Shown here in pieces: positions 1,630 through 11,692 of a stretch of 28,265 bases of DNA. The translations under genes and the position numbers were made by a program. The notes beneath the pieces are model-generated. The model worked only from the letters and a program-made list of their open reading frames with translations, did no database searches and had not been told where the DNA came from. This DNA is from a virus: positions 1 to 28,265 of IMG/VR virus record IMGVR_UViG_3300034407_003201. One strand, 5' to 3'. Positions within the stretch are counted from its first letter, which is position 1. The number at the start of each line of letters is the position of its first letter.

Positions 1630-3258
1630 ATGTCAAACTTAAATTCTCTTTTAGAGAGTGCTAATCAGTGGAAAAACGTCCAATCGGATGCCGCTAAATT
1701 AGCCAATAAGTGGAATAAAACCGGCTTGTTAGAAGGTATTTCTTCGGAAACCGAAAAAAACAACATGGCTTTAATCCTCGAAAACCAAGCTAAACAGCTG
1801 GTTGTTGAATCCTCACTTACAGGTGCAGGCACTAATGGTGCTCAATTTACAGGTGGACGAGGTGAACAATGGTCTGGAATTGCTCTTCCTCTCGTAAGAA
1901 AGGTATTCGGTCAAATCGCCGCGAAAGATTTCGTTTCGGTTCAACCTATGAGCCTACCTTCAGGACTTGTTTTCTTCCTTGATTTCCAATATGGAACAGC
2001 TAAATCTGGTTCTAAATTTGCCGTAGGTGGAAATGTATTTGGTTCAGGCTCTATGTATGGTGTTACTGATACAACTACAGCTCCAACTGATGGTACTTAT
2101 GGTGCCGGTAAGTGGACTTATTCTACAAACTTGACTTCATCAGCAGGCGCAAATGCTACATTTGCATCTTCTTCATGGGCTCAAACAGGATATGATGCTA
2201 CTTTATCAGCTTCAATTGCTCTTAACCAAGTAAAAGTATTTACTATTCCTGCTTCTGACTTTGATAATCCCGATACTAATGGTGTTAGAGGATTCGTAGT
2301 TGCAGGTACTGCGGTTGGTGCAAACTATCCTCAATACAACTACTATGATTCAACTAATCAAAACATAGTATTATTTGCTTCAGGTGGTGTAGCAGTTGAT
2401 CCTACAAACTTAATAATTTCTTACCCACAACAGACTACTGCTGCGGAAAGAGGTGACTTTGAAGATGGTAATACTTCACTTAACTTAAACAACAACCCAA
2501 TCGATATCCCAGAAATCAACATTAAGATGAAATCTGAGGCGATTGTTGCTAAAACTAAAAAGTTAAAGGCAGTATGGACTCCTGAGTTCGCTCAAGATTT
2601 AAATGCTTATCACTCATTAGACGCTGAAGCTGAATTGACTTCAATCATGAGTGAATATATTGCTCTTGAGATTGACTTAGAAATTCTTGGTATGTTGTTG
2701 GAAAATGCACTTACTACTGACTATTGGTCAGCTGTTAACAATCAAGGATTTGATGGTACAGTTGATACACCAATTAGTAATGGTACATTCTACAATACAC
2801 AAGGTCAATGGTTCCAAACTCTTGGTACTAAGTTAAACAAGGTATCTAACAAGATCCACCAGTTAACTTTAAGAGGAGGTGCTAACTTTATGGTATGTTC
2901 CCCAACAGTAGGTACTATCTTGGAATCAATCCCAGGATTTGCAGCTTCTGATGGTTCTGATGCAGATTCTATGAAGTATGCTTTCGGTATCCAAAAAGTT
3001 GGTAACTTGAACAGCAAGTATGAAGTTTATAAGAACCCATACATGACTGAAAATGCAATTTTATTAGGATTCAAAGGTTCACAATTCTTGGAAACAGGTG
3101 CTACATTCGCTCCTTATGTTCCATTAATTATGACTCCTCTTGTATACGATCCAAACACCTTTACTCCACGTAAAGGGCTCTTGACTCGTTATGCTAAGAA
3201 GATGTTAAGACCTGAATACTATGCTAAGATTATGGTTGCGGGTTTGAATACCCTCTAA
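1630..3258 (+). CDS. 23: major capsid protein, gp23-like
   Basis: A 542-residue protein, close to T4 gp23 (521). The N-terminal region has the family pattern: KWNKTGLLEGI near residues 28-37, LENQAKQLVVE at 50-60, then FTGGRGEQWSGIALPLVRKVF and the VQPMSLPSG segment. In T4, gp21 removes the N-terminal 65 residues after a glutamate in an LxxE-type site; LVVE ending at residue 60 is the equivalent candidate here (inference). The protein forms the hexamers of the head shell. The leader TTTTAAAACAAAAACAAA before the ATG lacks a Shine-Dalgarno sequence and is A-rich. The gene is followed by a strong terminator, as expected for the most abundant virion protein. Confidence 0.95.
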   Translation: MSNLNSLLESANQWKNVQSDAAKLANKWNKTGLLEGISSETEKNNMALILENQAKQLVVESSLTGAGTNGAQFTGGRGEQWSGIALPLVRKVFGQIAAKDFVSVQPMSLPSGLVFFLDFQYGTAKSGSKFAVGGNVFGSGSMYGVTDTTTAPTDGTYGAGKWTYSTNLTSSAGANATFASSSWAQTGYDATLSASIALNQVKVFTIPASDFDNPDTNGVRGFVVAGTAVGANYPQYNYYDSTNQNIVLFASGGVAVDPTNLIISYPQQTTAAERGDFEDGNTSLNLNNNPIDIPEINIKMKSEAIVAKTKKLKAVWTPEFAQDLNAYHSLDAEAELTSIMSEYIALEIDLEILGMLLENALTTDYWSAVNNQGFDGTVDTPISNGTFYNTQGQWFQTLGTKLNKVSNKIHQLTLRGGANFMVCSPTVGTILESIPGFAASDGSDADSMKYAFGIQKVGNLNSKYEVYKNPYMTENAILLGFKGSQFLETGATFAPYVPLIMTPLVYDPNTFTPRKGLLTRYAKKMLRPEYYAKIMVAGLNTL

Positions 3259-3282
3259 TCTAATTTTAGAATATAAATAGAG

Positions 3283-3309
3283 AAAGCCCCGCTTACGCGG
3301 GGCTTTTTT
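3283..3309 (+). terminator. intrinsic terminator after capsid gene
   Basis: A perfect 10-bp GC-rich stem, AAAGCCCCGC (3283-3292) with GCGGGGCTTT (3297-3306), has a TTAC loop and runs into a T tract (3304-3309). It is the strongest terminator in the window and insulates the capsid transcript from the metabolic cassette. Confidence 0.93.
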
Positions 3310-3329: not shown

Positions 3330-3337
3330 TATTTATA
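3330..3337 (+). promoter_or_regulatory. candidate late promoter TATTTATA
   Basis: TATTTATA lies just after the capsid terminator and 25 bases before the amidinohydrolase-like start, where a promoter for the three-gene cassette is required. The octamer recurs before many other genes here. Confidence 0.5.
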
Positions 3338-3362: not shown

Positions 3363-4277
3363 ATGAAAGAGACCCCCTCGCAACTGCCCATCCCGGCATT
3401 CGTTATGAATTTTCCTTTTACACTTGACACTTCAAATCCTAATAATGTTTGGATGCAAGAATTAGAAGAAGAAGCACTTAAAATAAATAAAGGAGTTGCT
3501 TATCGTCAATTTTTAGATTTATATCAATTTGTAGCTGGAAATAGCTTAGCTTATATATTACCTGCTACTGGTAATTTCCAAGATTTAGTTTATGTGGCTA
3601 ACTTAGGTATTTATCTCCCCCATATTAAAGATTCAAATAATATTATTATGGCTAATTTTACTTCTGAACCTCGACAAGGAGAAGAAGAAGTTGGAAAACC
3701 ATTTTTTGAATCTATGGATTATGAAGTTCATATGTGTCCTTTTAAATGGGAAGGAGAAGCAGATTTAAAATATCTTTATGATAATGTCTATATAGGAGGA
3801 TATGGCATCCGTTCAGATATTAAAGCTTATGAATGGATGGAAGAAAAATTTGATATGAAAATTATTAAATTAGAAATGGTTGATGAATATTTATACCATC
3901 TTGATTGTTCTATTTTCCCGTTAACTAAAGAAAAAACATTAGTTTGCACGGAACTATATAATGATGATGAATTAGCTGAATTATCACAATATACTACCGT
4001 AATAGACATAGGAATTAATGACACCCTTAACGGAATTGCAAATTCAGTACGTTTAGGTAATACTATATTGTGTGCTTCTAATATCTCTGAAATGACTCGA
4101 GCAGATGAAAACTATGAAGCTGAAAAAGCTAAAATAAATACATTAGAAAAAATTTGTTTTAATGAAGGTCTTGAACCCGTATTTTTTAACCTTTCAGAAT
4201 ATATGAAATCAGGAGCAATGTTAAGTTGTATGATGATGCATTTAAATTATGTTGATTATAATAAATCCTTACTATAA
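3363..4277 (+). CDS. DDAH/amidinotransferase-family hydrolase
   Basis: A 304-residue protein matching the dimethylarginine dimethylaminohydrolase / arginine-deiminase-like amidinotransferase superfamily, whose members act on guanidino groups by a cysteine nucleophile. Visible family landmarks in order are a VYVANLGIYL segment (residues 77-84), FESMDYEVH (115-123), FKWEGEAD (127-134), GYGIRSD (146-152), YHLDCSIFPL (178-187) and LSEYMKSGAMLSC near the end. These supply a candidate triad of Glu130, His179 and Cys289, spaced roughly as in bacterial DDAH. The substrate cannot be read from sequence: methylarginine, arginine, agmatine or a transfer reaction are all possible. The next gene starts in the overlapping TAATG, so the two are probably co-translated. 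It lies among virion genes but has no known virion role, so it is probably an auxiliary metabolic gene. Confidence 0.85.
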   Translation: MKETPSQLPIPAFVMNFPFTLDTSNPNNVWMQELEEEALKINKGVAYRQFLDLYQFVAGNSLAYILPATGNFQDLVYVANLGIYLPHIKDSNNIIMANFTSEPRQGEEEVGKPFFESMDYEVHMCPFKWEGEADLKYLYDNVYIGGYGIRSDIKAYEWMEEKFDMKIIKLEMVDEYLYHLDCSIFPLTKEKTLVCTELYNDDELAELSQYTTVIDIGINDTLNGIANSVRLGNTILCASNISEMTRADENYEAEKAKINTLEKICFNEGLEPVFFNLSEYMKSGAMLSCMMMHLNYVDYNKSLL

Positions 4278-5020
4278 TGGCTCAATACTTAGAAGATTGG
4301 TTAGAGGGAGAAGTTGCTGAGTTATCAAAATTAGAAGTAGGTGAATTATCAAATACCTTTTTTTTTAGGGATCCACTACGTCCTAACTATATAGATCATA
4401 AACATTTTTATAGTCCTGCGGATGGTACTATTTTATATCAAAAGGTAGTTCAAAATGCTACTGATCCCATAGTAGAAATTAAGGGTATGAATTATACAAT
4501 TCAAGATGTACTTGGAGATAAAACTTATGATAAACCTTCTCTTGTAATTGGTATATTTATGTCATTCTATGATGTTCATATAAATAGAATACCATATGCT
4601 GGTATATTACAATATAAAGGTTTAGACCCAATAGAGTCTACTAATAAACCTATGTTAGCCATAGAAAAAGATATTTTAAATGCTGCAATTAACCCCAATA
4701 ATTTAGAATATCTTAAATATAATGAAAGAATGTGGAATAAAATTTATTCCCCTCAATTAGATTATACTTATTACTTAGTCCAAATAGCAGATGAGGACGT
4801 AAATGTTATAGCTCCTTTTATTAATGATCAGAACTCACCTGTATCCCAAAATGAGCGTTTTTCACTTATAAGATGGGGTTCTCAAGTTGATCTAGTATTA
4901 CCCCTAGATGATAGATTTGATTTTGACCTTGTTTTAGAGGATGAGATGCATGTGAACGCTGGATTAGATAAACTAGTTAAAATTAATTTTAATAATGACC
5001 CATTTCAATATGACCGCTGA
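4277..5020 (+). CDS. psd: phosphatidylserine decarboxylase-like proenzyme
   Basis: A 247-residue protein with the ordered motifs of the pyruvoyl-dependent phosphatidylserine decarboxylase family: SPADG (46-50), FMSFYDVHINRIPYAG (94-109), an NER (192-194) and a self-cleavage site WGSQ (200-203) in place of the usual LGST. Asp49, His101 and Ser202 correspond in order and spacing to the Asp-His-Ser triad of E. coli Psd. Family chemistry predicts autocleavage between Gly201 and Ser202, leaving a small alpha chain of about 46 residues capped by pyruvoyl. Psd makes phosphatidylethanolamine from phosphatidylserine at the membrane; no clear membrane anchor is seen here, so a soluble or non-lipid substrate is possible. 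The start overlaps the upstream stop (TAATG) and the end overlaps phoH. Confidence 0.85.
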   Translation: MAQYLEDWLEGEVAELSKLEVGELSNTFFFRDPLRPNYIDHKHFYSPADGTILYQKVVQNATDPIVEIKGMNYTIQDVLGDKTYDKPSLVIGIFMSFYDVHINRIPYAGILQYKGLDPIESTNKPMLAIEKDILNAAINPNNLEYLKYNERMWNKIYSPQLDYTYYLVQIADEDVNVIAPFINDQNSPVSQNERFSLIRWGSQVDLVLPLDDRFDFDLVLEDEMHVNAGLDKLVKINFNNDPFQYDR

Positions 5021-5693
5021 AGCCAAAGAAATTTTTAGAGAAAAAAAGGTAGTAAAAAATCCTATAAAGTTTAAAATTCAATTAAACGAAGAACAAAAAG
5101 AAGCTAAACAGCTAATTTTAGATAATACTATAACACTTTTAGCAGGTCAAGCAGGATCAGGTAAAACTTTATTAGCCTGCCAAGTAGCCTTAGATGGTCT
5201 TCTTAGAAGAATTTATAATAAAATTATCATTACTAGACCTACAGTAAGTAAAGAAGAAATTGGATTCCTCCCGGGAGATTTAAGAGAAAAAATGGACCCC
5301 TGGGTTCAACCCATTTATCAAAATTTATTTATGTTGTATGATAAAGCTAAAGTTGAAAAACTTATAGCAGATGGTAAAATTGAAATAGTACCTGTTTCTT
5401 TTATGAGGGGTAGAACATTCTTAGATTCATGTGTTATTGTAGATGAAGCTCAAAATGTAACTCACGATCAAATGGAAATGATTACAACCCGTTTAGGTTT
5501 AAGATCTAAAATGATGGTTTGTGGAGATGCCCACCAAACTGACCTAAAGAAAAAATCAGACTCAGGATTTAAATATCTTTATAAAGCGTCACGAAAAATT
5601 AAAAATCTTGAAGCTATAACTTTAAATTCTAACCATAGAAATGAAATTGTAGAGGATTTAAGAGACTATTACACAGATAATCCTATTTATTGA
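4995..5693 (+). CDS. phoH: PhoH-like ATPase
   Basis: A 232-residue P-loop protein with Walker A GQAGSGKT (51-58), RGRTFLDS followed by Walker B VIVDEAQN (147-154), a TTRLG segment and a GDAHQTDL segment (178-184), the standard PhoH order. PhoH is an ATPase/putative RNA helicase, very common in marine phages; its role in infection is unsettled despite the link to phosphate starvation in bacteria. ATG 4995 gives a 26-base overlap with the decarboxylase gene. ATG 5010 (MTAEAKEIF) gives an 11-base overlap and is an equally good start. It is the last gene of the three-gene cassette. The stop TGA is followed within ten bases by the next TATTTATA element. Confidence 0.93.
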   Translation: MTHFNMTAEAKEIFREKKVVKNPIKFKIQLNEEQKEAKQLILDNTITLLAGQAGSGKTLLACQVALDGLLRRIYNKIIITRPTVSKEEIGFLPGDLREKMDPWVQPIYQNLFMLYDKAKVEKLIADGKIEIVPVSFMRGRTFLDSCVIVDEAQNVTHDQMEMITTRLGLRSKMMVCGDAHQTDLKKKSDSGFKYLYKASRKIKNLEAITLNSNHRNEIVEDLRDYYTDNPIY

Positions 5694-5701
5694 TTTCGTA
5701 A

Positions 5702-5709
5702 TATTTATA
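5702..5709 (+). promoter_or_regulatory. candidate late promoter TATTTATA
   Basis: TATTTATA ends 13 bases before the ATG at 5723 with an A-rich spacer (CGAAAACAATACA) and no Shine-Dalgarno sequence. Confidence 0.5.
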
Positions 5710-5722
5710 CGAAAACAATACA

Positions 5723-6121
5723 ATGTCAGCTGGAAGATATTCATTTACAATAGAACAAGGAGCAACTTTGGATTTTGAGTTAGCGTATAAAGATTCTGAC
5801 AATAATCCTGTAAATTTAACAGGATACCAAGGCCGTATGCAATTACGTCCCTCTGCTGGATCTGATATTAAATACATTACATTATCAAGTAGTTTAGCTA
5901 CCGATGGAACAGGTCTTAATTTTAGTGGGTCAGATGGGCTTAATCCTCCTACATCAGGAACCATAGGAATCTTTATATCTGCTAATTCTTCTTCTCAATT
6001 AGATTTTGGAGAAGCAGTATATGATTTAGAATTAGCTACAGGAAGTGAATTTCCTATAGTTACTAGATTATTAGAAGGTCAAGTTAGATTAAGCAAAAAT
6101 GTAACCTTAGGTAGTTTCTAA
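5723..6121 (+). CDS. virion structural protein (cyanophage-type small beta protein)
   Basis: A 132-residue beta-rich protein. The N-terminal pattern FTIEQGATLDFELAYKDSDN, then PVNLTGYQGRMQLRPS, and a later YDLEL segment are typical of a small virion-associated protein seen in many marine myoviruses, usually annotated only as structural. It has no signal peptide or membrane segment. It opens the fibre cluster and is translationally coupled by TAATG to the next small ORF. A role as baseplate or fibre adaptor is an inference from position. Confidence 0.7.
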   Translation: MSAGRYSFTIEQGATLDFELAYKDSDNNPVNLTGYQGRMQLRPSAGSDIKYITLSSSLATDGTGLNFSGSDGLNPPTSGTIGIFISANSSSQLDFGEAVYDLELATGSEFPIVTRLLEGQVRLSKNVTLGSF

Positions 6122-6267
6122 TGAACCAAGTAGTTTCCTTAGAAACCTTATCTAGAATAATAGTAACAGAAAATTGTGGAGATACAATAATTGTATCCAT
6201 GATAAATACTAGTGTTACGGTAACCAAACCTAATAATATAGTAAATATAACAAACTGTGGGTCGTAA
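6121..6267 (+). CDS. 48-residue beta-rich small protein
   Basis: ATG 6121 overlaps the upstream stop (TAATG) and the frame ends at TAA 6265-6267, giving 48 residues. It contains a valine/isoleucine/threonine-rich alternating pattern (IIVTENCGDTIIVSMINTSV) that resembles the start of the following collagen-like protein (VIVTDNVCNKSVTIELPQ). Both carry cysteine after a VTEN/VTDN motif. The next gene starts inside its last codons in another frame. It may be a short paralogue or a separated head domain of the stalk protein. No function is assigned. Confidence 0.6.
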   Translation: MNQVVSLETLSRIIVTENCGDTIIVSMINTSVTVTKPNNIVNITNCGS

Positions 6268-7378
6268 TCCAATAAACATATCAGACCAAGTAAACCAAAT
6301 CATTTTACAAAATCAAAATGAAAAGGTTATTGTTACAGATAATGTTTGTAATAAATCAGTTACTATTGAATTACCCCAAACAAATTTAATTGTTCAAGAA
6401 AACTATACCCAAGTAGTTACTGTAAATGAAGGAGCTACAGGTAAATCAGGTACATCTGGTACTAGTGGTACCTCTGGTACGGCTGGTACTGGGGGTACAT
6501 CAGGTACCTCAGGTTCAAGCGGTACTTCAGGTACTTCAGGTACTTCAGGCACTTCAGGCTCTTCAGGTACTTCAGGTATAGATGGTTCTTCAGGTACCTC
6601 AGGTATTGATGGCTCTTCAGGTACTTCGGGTGTAAATGGCTCTTCAGGCACTAGTGGTTCTTCGGGCACAAGTGGTACCTCAGGATCATCAGGTACTTCA
6701 GGTTCATCAGGTACTAGTGGCTCATCAGGTACTAGTGGCTCTTCAGGCACCTCAGGAATTAATGGCTCTTCAGGTACTTCGGGTGTAAATGGCTCTTCAG
6801 GCACTAGTGGTTCTTCGGGCACAAGTGGTACCTCAGGATCATCAGGTACTTCAGGTTCATCAGGTACTAGTGGCTCATCAGGTACTAGTGGCTCTTCAGG
6901 CACCTCAGGAATTAATGGCTCTTCAGGTACTTCGGGTGTAAATGGCTCTTCAGGCACTAGTGGTTCTTCGGGCACAAGTGGTATCTCAGGATCATCGGGT
7001 ACTTCAGGTTCATCAGGTACTAGTGGCTCATCAGGTATTAGTGGCTCTTCAGGTACCTCAGGTATTGATGGGGCTAATGTGACTAACCCAGGAGATAATA
7101 GAGTAGTTACTTCACTAGGAACACCATCAGGACTTCTTGCTGAAGAAAATATGCTATTCACAGGTACTTTACTATCAGTAAGTAGTAGTGTAGAAATAAC
7201 AGGATCATCACTTAATGACATTTTTATAATAAAACTTGAAAATGGAAATGGTCAGGATGAAAAATTAAAGGTAAATAATGAAGGAGCATTAGTATTAGGT
7301 AATATGAATTCACCCCCAACAGCAGTTACGGGTGGTCTTTACTACTCAAATGGAACTTTCTTCGCAGGGACTGAATAA
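6257..7378 (+). CDS. collagen-like stalk/fibre protein
   Basis: A 373-residue protein in three parts. A beta-rich head of about 60 residues ends in VVTVNEGATG. A long Gly-X-Y region without proline, made mainly of GTS and GSS triplets with GID, GIN and GVN interruptions, runs to about residue 272. A C-terminal globular part of about 100 residues ends in GGLYYSNGTFFAGTE, a form common at the ends of phage fibre proteins. It probably makes a trimeric stalk on the virion. GTG 6257 is the only usable start, since TAA occurs at 6248-6250 in frame and no ATG occurs before the repeats; it overlaps the preceding ORF by 11 bases. The long antisense ORF over this stretch is a by-product of the repeats. 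Confidence 0.8.
   Translation: MGRNPINISDQVNQIILQNQNEKVIVTDNVCNKSVTIELPQTNLIVQENYTQVVTVNEGATGKSGTSGTSGTSGTAGTGGTSGTSGSSGTSGTSGTSGTSGSSGTSGIDGSSGTSGIDGSSGTSGVNGSSGTSGSSGTSGTSGSSGTSGSSGTSGSSGTSGSSGTSGINGSSGTSGVNGSSGTSGSSGTSGTSGSSGTSGSSGTSGSSGTSGSSGTSGINGSSGTSGVNGSSGTSGSSGTSGISGSSGTSGSSGTSGSSGISGSSGTSGIDGANVTNPGDNRVVTSLGTPSGLLAEENMLFTGTLLSVSSSVEITGSSLNDIFIIKLENGNGQDEKLKVNNEGALVLGNMNSPPTAVTGGLYYSNGTFFAGTE
6611..7069 (+). repeat. 153-bp tandem repeat, three copies, in the stalk gene
   Basis: The landmark TGTAAATGGC recurs at 6631, 6784 and 6937, exactly 153 bases apart. Copies 1 and 2 (about 6611-6763 and 6764-6916) look almost identical base for base. Copy 3 has a few changes, including Thr-to-Ile substitutions. 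The unit is 51 residues, or 17 Gly-X-Y triplets, so copy number can change without breaking frame. Confidence 0.88.
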
Positions 7379-9580: not shown

Positions 9581-10648
9581 ATGCCAAATTGGAAAAAAGT
9601 AATAATATCAGGTAGTAATGCTATTCTGAATGACATCACAACTACAGGTGAAATAAAAACAACCACATCTAATGGGAATATCACTCTTACCCCAGATGGG
9701 ACAGGATTTCTTGAAATCAAAGGTAACCAAGCAAGTGGAGCAGATAATCCAGGCTCAATTCGTCTAAATTGTGCAGCTAATTCTCATGGAGTCACTATTA
9801 AATCTCCACCCCATTCATCAGCAGCTACTTATACTTTAACATTACCAAATGGTGATGGAACTAATGGACAAGCACTTATAACAAATGGTAGTGGGGTTTT
9901 ATCTTTTACAGATGTAAGTAATAATGCTGGAACTGTAACTCAAGTTAGGATTAATGGGGGTACGGGAATTACAACTACTGGTGATACTACCATCACAACA
10001 TCAGGAACTGCTACTGTAAATCTTGACGATACAGCTGTTACTGCAGGAAGTTATACGAGTGCAGATATCACCGTCGATGCACAAGGAAGAATTACAGCGG
10101 CAGCGAATGGATCAGGTGGAGGTGGTGGTGGTGTAACCTCAGTAACAGGTACAACTCCAATTTCATCTACTGGAGGTAGTACACCTGCTATATCGATCTC
10201 AGCAGCAACAACAAGTGCAGCAGGTTCTATGAGCGCTGCAGATAAAACCAAATTAGACAATATTACAAGTAATTATGAAGAGGATGAATTAAAAACAGGA
10301 CAAAACATATTAATGAATTCAAGTGTATCTGTCACTTCAAATAGGATTGCAGATATAATGGGGGATGCTTTAGCTGATAAAAGTAATGCTAATAGTAAAA
10401 AACTTATAGGATTTCATTTAGGTAGTGGTGTTTGTGTTTTACAAGGAATGGTAGATGCAGTTAATTCTATTAGTGGAGCAACAGCAGGAGATCCTTTATG
10501 GTTAGGGGCGTCAGGTGCATTTAGTGCAACAGCACCTACGGCACAAAATGAATATTCAAGAATTGTAGGTTATTATGTAGGAGGAGGACAAGGAGGTGAA
10601 CAACTATGTTACTTTGATCCAAGTAAAGATTGGATCCAAATAGATTAA
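9581..10648 (+). CDS. tail fibre protein
   Basis: A 355-residue fibre-type protein starting MPNWKKVIISGSN, close to the start of the 573-residue fibre at 7414. In order it shows a beta-rich region (GNITLTPDGTGFLEIKG, 32-48), the common phage-fibre segment TYTLTLPNGDGTNGQALIT (83-101), a GSYTSADITVDAQGRITAA shaft motif (156-174), a six-glycine linker (179-184), a DKTKLDNI segment near 221, and a C-terminal part with LGSGVCVLQGMV and GDPLWLGASGAF resembling capping domains. The last segment may be a head-binding or tip domain. The two fibres probably use the shared N-terminus to dock on the same virion partner. Confidence 0.8.
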   Translation: MPNWKKVIISGSNAILNDITTTGEIKTTTSNGNITLTPDGTGFLEIKGNQASGADNPGSIRLNCAANSHGVTIKSPPHSSAATYTLTLPNGDGTNGQALITNGSGVLSFTDVSNNAGTVTQVRINGGTGITTTGDTTITTSGTATVNLDDTAVTAGSYTSADITVDAQGRITAAANGSGGGGGGVTSVTGTTPISSTGGSTPAISISAATTSAAGSMSAADKTKLDNITSNYEEDELKTGQNILMNSSVSVTSNRIADIMGDALADKSNANSKKLIGFHLGSGVCVLQGMVDAVNSISGATAGDPLWLGASGAFSATAPTAQNEYSRIVGYYVGGGQGGEQLCYFDPSKDWIQID

Positions 10649-10650
10649 TA

Positions 10651-11475
10651 ATGGGAGAAATTTCAGGAATATCAACAGCAGATTTAAATAATGTAGACGG
10701 ATTTTTCACTACGCAAGGAGGTGGGGGTACTGTTACCCCAACCCCACAAACTGCTAGTATAGCTTCTACTCAATATTCAGATGGAACATTAACTATTTCA
10801 AATACAGGTTCATATACCCAGTTAAGTGTTTTTTGTGAAATTAAATCTGGTAGCACTTTAATAGTTCCTAATTCGTCTATGTCTTATGATAGTTCAAATG
10901 GAGTTCTAACATGGGTAGATACAGGAACCGTAGGTACCCGTACATTTTTCCTTAAAGGACAAGATTTTGGATTTGCATCAAGTTCACAAGTTACTGGAAA
11001 TTATAATAGAGGAGATAATGCGAGAAAATATTGGAGATATGCATTACATGGAACTGCAGATCACACATATACTAGAAATTTAAGATATTATACAGAACTT
11101 AGCCAGGCTGGTACTTCATATCCTCCAGATATGACAAGTGCTACAGCACCTTCCCCTTATGAAGCTACCGCTAGCTATGCATACGATTCAACTTATGTAG
11201 GTTGGAAAGCATTTGATTCTAGCACAACAGGTACAGGTTGGTGGAATCTAGGAACTCACACTAATCAGTATAATGACTATCTTACACTTTATGTTGGAAC
11301 TACCCCAATAGCAATAAAAAGCGCAGCTGTTAATATTAACCAAAGTTTTGATGGAGTAACTAGTATTTCTATAGTAGGGGCTAATAATGAAGCTTTTACT
11401 CAAGATGTATTAATTCTAGTTAGTAGCCAATCAAGAACTACTTCAACTGCCGAACTTAGTATAACCATTAACTAA
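10651..11475 (+). CDS. putative adhesin with discoidin-like C-terminus
   Basis: The start is ATG 10651, just after the upstream stop; the frame opens earlier (TTG 10630) but inside the preceding gene. The 274-residue protein begins MGEISGISTADLNNVDGFFT followed by a glycine run and a Thr/Pro linker, a beta-sandwich-like part (residues 35-105), and a KYWRY segment at 126-130. From about 165 it has SPYEATASYAYDSTYVGWKAFDSSTTGTGWW, which resembles the start of F5/8 type C (discoidin, galactose-binding) domains, where an AFD motif precedes a GWW/GWS strand. Such domains bind carbohydrates, so this is a receptor-binding candidate. The similarity is by eye. Confidence 0.62.
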   Translation: MGEISGISTADLNNVDGFFTTQGGGGTVTPTPQTASIASTQYSDGTLTISNTGSYTQLSVFCEIKSGSTLIVPNSSMSYDSSNGVLTWVDTGTVGTRTFFLKGQDFGFASSSQVTGNYNRGDNARKYWRYALHGTADHTYTRNLRYYTELSQAGTSYPPDMTSATAPSPYEATASYAYDSTYVGWKAFDSSTTGTGWWNLGTHTNQYNDYLTLYVGTTPIAIKSAAVNINQSFDGVTSISIVGANNEAFTQDVLILVSSQSRTTSTAELSITIN

Positions 11476-11482
11476 TATAAAA

Positions 11483-11692
11483 ATGAAAGAACAATGTAAA
11501 CTTATTATCTTGTCGTATGCTGATGAGGAAATGCAACGCAACGCTTCTTTAACAGGAGAAAATAAAGTATATGTTAATACTGTACTTCAATTAATACGAG
11601 ATGAATACCATAGTCAAGTTGATAGTGGTGCTACTGAATTCATCCTTCCTACTAGTATAGCTGATCAATTAAATGCTATGAGACCTTGGTAA
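11483..11692 (+). CDS. 69-residue hypothetical protein
   Basis: A small mostly helical protein (LIILSYADEEMQRNASLTGE, then VNTVLQLIRDEYHSQVDSG) ending in NAMRPW. It follows the adhesin gene by seven bases and closes the fibre cluster, so it is probably co-transcribed with it. No signal peptide, membrane segment or recognised motif is seen. Confidence 0.55.
   Translation: MKEQCKLIILSYADEEMQRNASLTGENKVYVNTVLQLIRDEYHSQVDSGATEFILPTSIADQLNAMRPW

Follow-up and report, generated by a model that had tools for sequence, protein, structure and literature searches.

Genes behind the capsid gene

The window, meaning the whole stretch of DNA analysed here, is a 28 kb virus record (28,265 nucleotides) and a fragment of an uncultured T4-like phage. 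Judging only by relatives, its host would be found among water bacteria. A Gp23 capsid gene, T4-type sheath and tube genes and late promoter-like elements are present in the window, as in a T4-like late region. The features around the locus of interest are as follows.

1630..3258, + strand: major capsid protein Gp23 (PF07068, 3.8e-72; phrog_138), the upstream backbone neighbour of genes 1 and 2
3280..3309, + strand: intrinsic terminator behind the capsid gene, with a 13-pair stem and a T run
3330..3337, + strand: TATTTATA, a T4-late-promoter-like element ahead of genes 1 and 2; enriched in the window and recurring near gene 1
3363..4277, + strand: gene 1 (P0001), arginine-dihydrolase-like pentein hydrolase, 304 aa (NCBIfam, 1e-21)
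4277..5020, + strand: gene 2 (P0002), predicted soluble pyruvoyl decarboxylase of the phosphatidylserine decarboxylase (PSD) family, 247 aa (PF02666, 2.8e-24)
4995..5693, + strand: gene 3, PhoH ATPase, 232 aa (PF02562, 3.5e-62), in a common late unit with genes 1 and 2
5702..5709, + strand: TATTTATA element of the next unit, likewise enriched in the window
5723..6121, + strand: downstream backbone gene (phrog_1084), with weak similarity to L-shaped tail fiber assembly

An initial annotation had described genes 1 to 3 as a three-gene cassette. The three overlapping reading frames (3363-4277, 4277-5020 and 4995-5693) are open and intact, and their junctions are as it had claimed: genes 1 and 2 meet in a TAATG at 4275-4279, and gene 2, with its stop at 5020, overlaps PhoH by 26 bases (ATG 4995) or 11 bases (ATG 5010). 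The flanks were also confirmed, with the terminator hairpin (3280-3309) and the TATTTATA at 3330 on the capsid side and the TATTTATA at 5702 on the other. The inclusion of PhoH was not borne out. PhoH is securely identified (210 bits against a PF02562 cut-off of 27 bits), and both it and the capsid protein have their closest relatives in Flavobacterium phage immuto (59.4% and 54.5% identity, respectively). In immuto, the capsid gene is followed by two other genes, then by PhoH and the next gene; neither gene 1 nor gene 2 was detected in this phage at E up to 10. The slot that corresponds to 3363-5020 of the window (9690-11613 of the immuto locus) holds one gene for a short tail fiber and one hypothetical gene. 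Since the capsid gene, PhoH and the next gene are retained in immuto without genes 1 and 2, PhoH and its neighbours belong to the phage backbone and the position between them is an exchangeable slot. A three-gene cassette was thus rejected, and the cassette proper is two genes, referred to below as the pair.

The TATTTATA element occurs 16 times in the window against 6.5 expected, a count reached by none of 100 shuffled sequences. Eight intergenic copies lie on the + strand, at 3330, 5702, 9503, 11712, 16731, 17298, 20962 and 26267. Near the start of gene 1, TATTTATA or TATAAATA was found in 56 of 106 related loci, where the rate inside genes predicts about 0.07 per stretch.

Several other features of these contigs were noted. 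At the PhoH position, related contigs have one of two clearly different PhoH types (E of about 1e-55 versus 1e-105 or better), and the gene before the capsid gene is doubled in close relatives, with a diverged copy upstream (1407-2336 and 2985-4238 of L001). Positions 6257-7375 of the window encode a repeat-built, collagen-like tail fiber protein; the long antisense reading frame within this gene (6403-7221) seems to be a side effect of these repeats.

The two enzymes of the pair

Gene 1 had been assigned to the DDAH family. Sequence models of DDAH and of arginine dihydrolase match P0001 about equally (1e-21), and among proteins of solved structure the profile search matched AgrE and ArgZ, two arginine dihydrolases from cyanobacteria, and no others. 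The AlphaFold (AF2) model of P0001 (pLDDT 87.5) likewise has ArgZ/AgrE as its top 13 PDB folds, with E from 1.5e-17 to 6e-20; DDAH follows at 6.5e-11. Residues of P0001 and AgrE pair as N28/N22, N80/N71, R104/R90, E130/E118, R150/R139, H179/H168 and D181/D170, and C289 aligns with the catalytic Cys of ArgZ/AgrE, C264, once the numbering offset between constructs, worked out by hand, is applied. N80, E130, H179 and C289 are the predicted catalytic residues, which include the Glu, His and Cys of the ArgZ/AgrE type. The mapped residues are invariant in 67 phage rows of the alignment and nearly so in 38 bacterial rows, in which the small number of exceptions seem to come from reading frames that are truncated or frame-mixed.

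Asn71 is the determinant that separates arginine dihydrolases from deiminases and amidinotransferases, and DDAH has Asp at the position matching Asn80 of P0001. Asn was found at this position in 67/67 phage rows and 37/38 bacterial rows. The titles of ArgZ/AgrE-type structures in the PDB include N71S and C264S mutants. An assignment of P0001 to DDAH proper was rejected, with both fold and residues fitting ArgZ better. Because P0001 scores 75.8 bits against the NCBIfam arginine dihydrolase equivalog, whose cut-off is 450, we term it ArgZ-like and do not file it as a member of that family. Gene 1 is under purifying selection (dN/dS 0.08-0.11), and on sequence and model its product is predicted to be a pentein guanidino-hydrolase closest to ArgZ/AgrE.

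P0002 scores 86.3 bits against PF02666, above the curated cut-off of 22. Residues D49, H101 and G201-S202 are invariant in 37 rows, and self-cleavage is predicted between G201 and S202. A hydropathy check revealed no N-terminal membrane-anchoring hairpin of the kind found in short bacterial PSDs: maximal hydropathy is -0.7 to 0.4 in the gene 2 subfamily versus 1.2 to 2.5 in the canonical PSDs of carrier genomes. Gene 2 and its bacterial relatives form a clade apart from those canonical PSDs (support 100/99, with some long branches). Within it, GSQ nearly invariantly replaces GSR, placing Gln instead of Arg behind the processing Ser, and QIADxD, also nearly invariant, replaces QIAGxxARR, so that Asp stands in for both the Gly and an aliphatic residue of canonical PSDs. 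An inserted N-x-P-M-x3-E motif, nearly invariant as well, carries an invariant Glu. These changes would suit a substrate that is soluble and positively charged better than they would an anionic lipid. The gene is under purifying selection (dN/dS 0.04-0.07). The structural comparison proposed with the initial annotation, which placed gene 1 far closer to ArgZ/AgrE than to DDAH, was of little help for gene 2, whose model was poor (pLDDT 60.6); PsiD was its best fold match, but a weak one from a model too poor for firm comparison.

The PF02666 score and the retention of D49, H101 and the Gly-Ser site could be taken to mean that P0002 is an ordinary phosphatidylserine decarboxylase that alters host membranes, with P0001 an unrelated arginine hydrolase. 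We regard this as very improbable given the missing hairpin, the distinct clade, the replacement of arginines by Asp and Gln, and the tight linkage and co-occurrence with gene 1 described below. In addition, a PSD-family match was found in 29/29 surveyed carriers of the pair, and 26 of the 29 have another besides the copy in the pair. Membrane remodelling by a PSD was rejected on these grounds, and P0002 is predicted to represent a separate soluble PSD subfamily for which phosphatidylserine is an unlikely substrate.

The pair in phages and bacteria

The initial annotation had considered this gene combination foreign to T4-like phages and suggested a search for adjacent DDAH- and PSD-family genes. 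The pair proved to be widespread, its members annotated as unknown, amidinotransferase or PSD. It was found in about 100 viral loci, always in the order gene 1, gene 2, and every viral contig that contains gene 2 and is long enough reads capsid, gene 1, gene 2, PhoH; the pair is fixed between capsid and PhoH in this environmental phage clade. In the phages collection, both families are present in Campylobacter fletcherviruses and in six Bacteroides phages, where they are adjacent; the other matches were a single distant Xanthomonas DDAH and a small number of partial matches. Genes 1 and 2 lie 43 kb apart in fletchervirus NCTC12673, so closeness on the genome does not explain why both are present there. 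One phage contig (L032) has, at 5962-6843 and with PhoH upstream, a gene 1 that is more distant (47%); no gene 2 was found within its 35.6 kb, perhaps because the contig is a fragment, perhaps because gene 1 does occur singly there. A search of 10 phage contigs found no spermidine synthase. Because the pair occurs in fletcherviruses, a link to their deoxyinosine DNA was considered; no evidence for it was found, and guanidino hydrolysis alone would not yield inosine.

A scan for gene 2 across the genomes of 84,980 bacterial and archaeal species returned 43 loci. Gene 1 is close to gene 2 in about 37 of the 43, and lies downstream of it in all but two, L156 and L119, the latter being a phage contig that sits in a Flavobacteriales bin. 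Carriers belong to Verrucomicrobiota, Acidobacteriota, Actinomycetota, Latescibacterota, Sulfurimonas, Xenorhabdus and Photorhabdus. The order is gene 1 then gene 2 in phages and gene 2 then gene 1 in nearly all bacteria, and this opposition suggests that the pair was rearranged at or after capture. Since the scan used gene 2 as its query, a reciprocal test within Verrucomicrobiales matters: of 142 genomes of this order, four contain gene 2, and these are also the ones that contain gene 1 (E below 1e-110), next to gene 2; two further genomes contain weak DDAH paralogs only. Co-function of genes 1 and 2 is well supported.

Neighbouring genes differ among the bacterial loci. In Xenorhabdus (L148, 3644-9628), a cholesterol-oxidase-like flavoenzyme and an ABC exporter flank the pair, which may belong to a specialised-metabolite cluster. 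MATE efflux genes adjoin the pair in Sulfurimonas and in Verrucomicrobiales (7711-9069 of L126 and 7750-9150 of L128), and a gene for a PotD/PotF-like binding protein lies near the pair in Verrucomicrobiales. One Thermoleophilaceae genome, G012, has two separate copies of the pair (L132 and L136) and a third, canonical-type PSD-family gene.

The distribution of the pair was compared with that of the arginine decarboxylase SpeA. Among the 142 Verrucomicrobiales-order genomes, 121 have SpeA (113 matches over the cut-off and 8 strong partial ones) and 21 lack it. All four carriers of the pair fall among these 21, and SpeA is found in 121 of the other 138 genomes (Fisher p 4e-4, a value that overstates independence given that the genomes are related). 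In seven Verrucomicrobiales carriers, LysA is the only homolog of the PLP-dependent ornithine/arginine decarboxylases, and there is no convincing OKR-type enzyme, no pyruvoyl arginine decarboxylase and no SpeD. Xenorhabdus and some actinobacterial carriers already possess OKR-type or SpeA-length decarboxylases, which indicates that putrescine supply is not the role of the pair everywhere.

This distribution would directly fit a SpeA-like activity, in which case P0002 would decarboxylate arginine to agmatine and P0001 would hydrolyse agmatine to putrescine or N-carbamoylputrescine. The pair-bearing Thermoleophilaceae genome G012 also favours this order, having an arginase/agmatinase-family gene beside a deoxyhypusine-synthase-family gene and no known arginine decarboxylase. 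R90 and R139 of AgrE, however, bind the alpha-carboxylate of arginine, a group missing from agmatine, and their counterparts R104 and R150 are kept in P0001; the enzymes closest to P0001 use arginine itself. We consider the agmatine order unlikely.

The exporters after or beside the pair in Xenorhabdus, Sulfurimonas and Verrucomicrobiales, together with the OKR-type decarboxylases already in Xenorhabdus, could instead point to another amine, such as an arginine- or citrulline-derived specialised metabolite or a modification of lipid, surface or nucleic acid. The PSD-related PsiD, which acts on a free amino acid, offers a precedent (PMC12099186). We find this reading improbable in view of the distribution opposite to that of SpeA and the PotD/PotF-like neighbour in Verrucomicrobiales; moreover, the phage loci share no third pathway gene, and none stands out across the bacterial ones. 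It would be more surprising still if the pair served mainly to deplete arginine or free ammonia for nitrogen supply or defence, with the decarboxylase merely pulling the reaction forward. ArgZ does serve nitrogen remobilisation, but there would then be no need for a second dedicated enzyme, which phages and many bacterial lineages nevertheless retain, and the distribution is complementary to that of SpeA.

A putative route from arginine to putrescine

The explanation that we favour, with a probability of roughly 0.6, is that the pair forms an arginine to ornithine to putrescine module expressed late, for DNA replication or packaging. P0001 would hydrolyse both terminal guanidino nitrogens of L-arginine through an ArgZ-like adduct on Cys289, yielding L-ornithine, two ammonia and CO2. 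P0002, after cleaving itself at Gly201-Ser202 to generate a pyruvoyl group, would decarboxylate ornithine to putrescine without PLP. This transferable two-enzyme putrescine module would have come from bacteria, where it can presumably substitute for SpeA, and its place in a late-transcribed unit that follows the capsid gene would raise putrescine during replication and packaging of phage DNA. Both the late promoter-like element and the capsid-side position would fit a supply of putrescine, a small positively charged molecule, for packaging. DNA synthesis and maturation of T4 fall in polyamine-starved cells, and some phages package polyamines (PMC7226272); other phages encode other putrescine enzymes (PMC9992855). 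Several observations count against this explanation: immuto, which is close to the window phage in its capsid, lives without the pair, the 10 phage contigs yielded no spermidine synthase, P0001 falls below the NCBIfam cut-off, and the model of P0002 is poor.

The initial annotation had suggested a shared pathway on an arginine-derived compound, with polyamines among those listed. That idea gains from the co-occurrence and adjacency of the genes in many bacterial lineages and from the SpeA-complementary distribution, and it is its enzyme assignments that have changed, with gene 1 ArgZ-like rather than DDAH-like in residues and fold and gene 2 from a soluble subfamily unlikely to use phosphatidylserine. 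We lean, a little beyond even odds, towards the wider view of a PLP-free pathway, not described before, in which an arginine dihydrolase and a soluble PSD-family ornithine decarboxylase convert arginine to putrescine. This pathway would take the place of SpeA in some bacteria and would have entered several T4-like phage lineages as a late module linked to replication or packaging. Our literature search turned up neither a description of such a route nor an assay of either enzyme, and no paper joining both families with Campylobacter phages or, relevantly, with putrescine. Among the papers searched, only one on CRISPR mentions the conserved Fletchervirus PSD, and an ocean survey called psd abundance negligible.

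If correct, this route would fill a gap in polyamine synthesis, giving bacteria with no known arginine or ornithine decarboxylase such an enzyme, one whose protein family is catalogued under phospholipid enzymes. Amidinotransferase and phosphatidylserine decarboxylase annotations would need correction in all fletcherviruses and many environmental phages. The number of unrelated pyruvoyl routes by which phages reach putrescine or its precursors would rise to three, and gene deletion would offer a test of why phages need polyamines, a long-standing question.

Among known enzymes, P0001 most resembles ArgZ (Sll1336) and the N-terminal domain of AgrE (Alr4995), sharing their pentein fold and counterparts of N71, R90, E118, R139, H168, D170 and C264. 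It differs in its low identity (~21%), its score under the NCBIfam cut-off, its free-standing form without an ornithine cyclodeaminase domain, and its decarboxylase partner. DDAH has the same fold and the same Cys, His and Glu catalytic residues, and its sequence model matches at 1e-21, but the structural match is weaker and P0001 has Asn80 where DDAH has Asp. P0002 shares with the short bacterial PSDs (PF02666) the family, the Asp and His, and the Gly-Ser self-processing site; unlike them, it lacks a transmembrane hairpin, carries the N-x-P-M-x3-E insert, and has GSQ for GSR and QIADxD for QIAGxxARR. The L-tryptophan decarboxylase PsiD demonstrates that a PSD-related enzyme can use a free amino acid (PMC12099186), as proposed for P0002, but PsiD is fungal, larger and specific for an aromatic substrate. 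Phage putrescine enzymes described previously (PLP-dependent ornithine decarboxylase, SpeD-derived pyruvoyl ornithine/arginine decarboxylases and arginase; PMC9992855, PMC10407285) carry out the arginine or ornithine to putrescine chemistry proposed for the pair, in part with a pyruvoyl group, but belong to different protein families; neither paper names PSD-family enzymes or arginine dihydrolase. The closest phage counterparts are the amidinotransferase and PSD genes of Fletchervirus and DAC19_243/244 of a Bacteroides phage, which have no assigned function, belong to the same two families at 36-42% identity and are unlinked in Fletchervirus, unlike in the window, and adjacent in the Bacteroides phage, as they are here.
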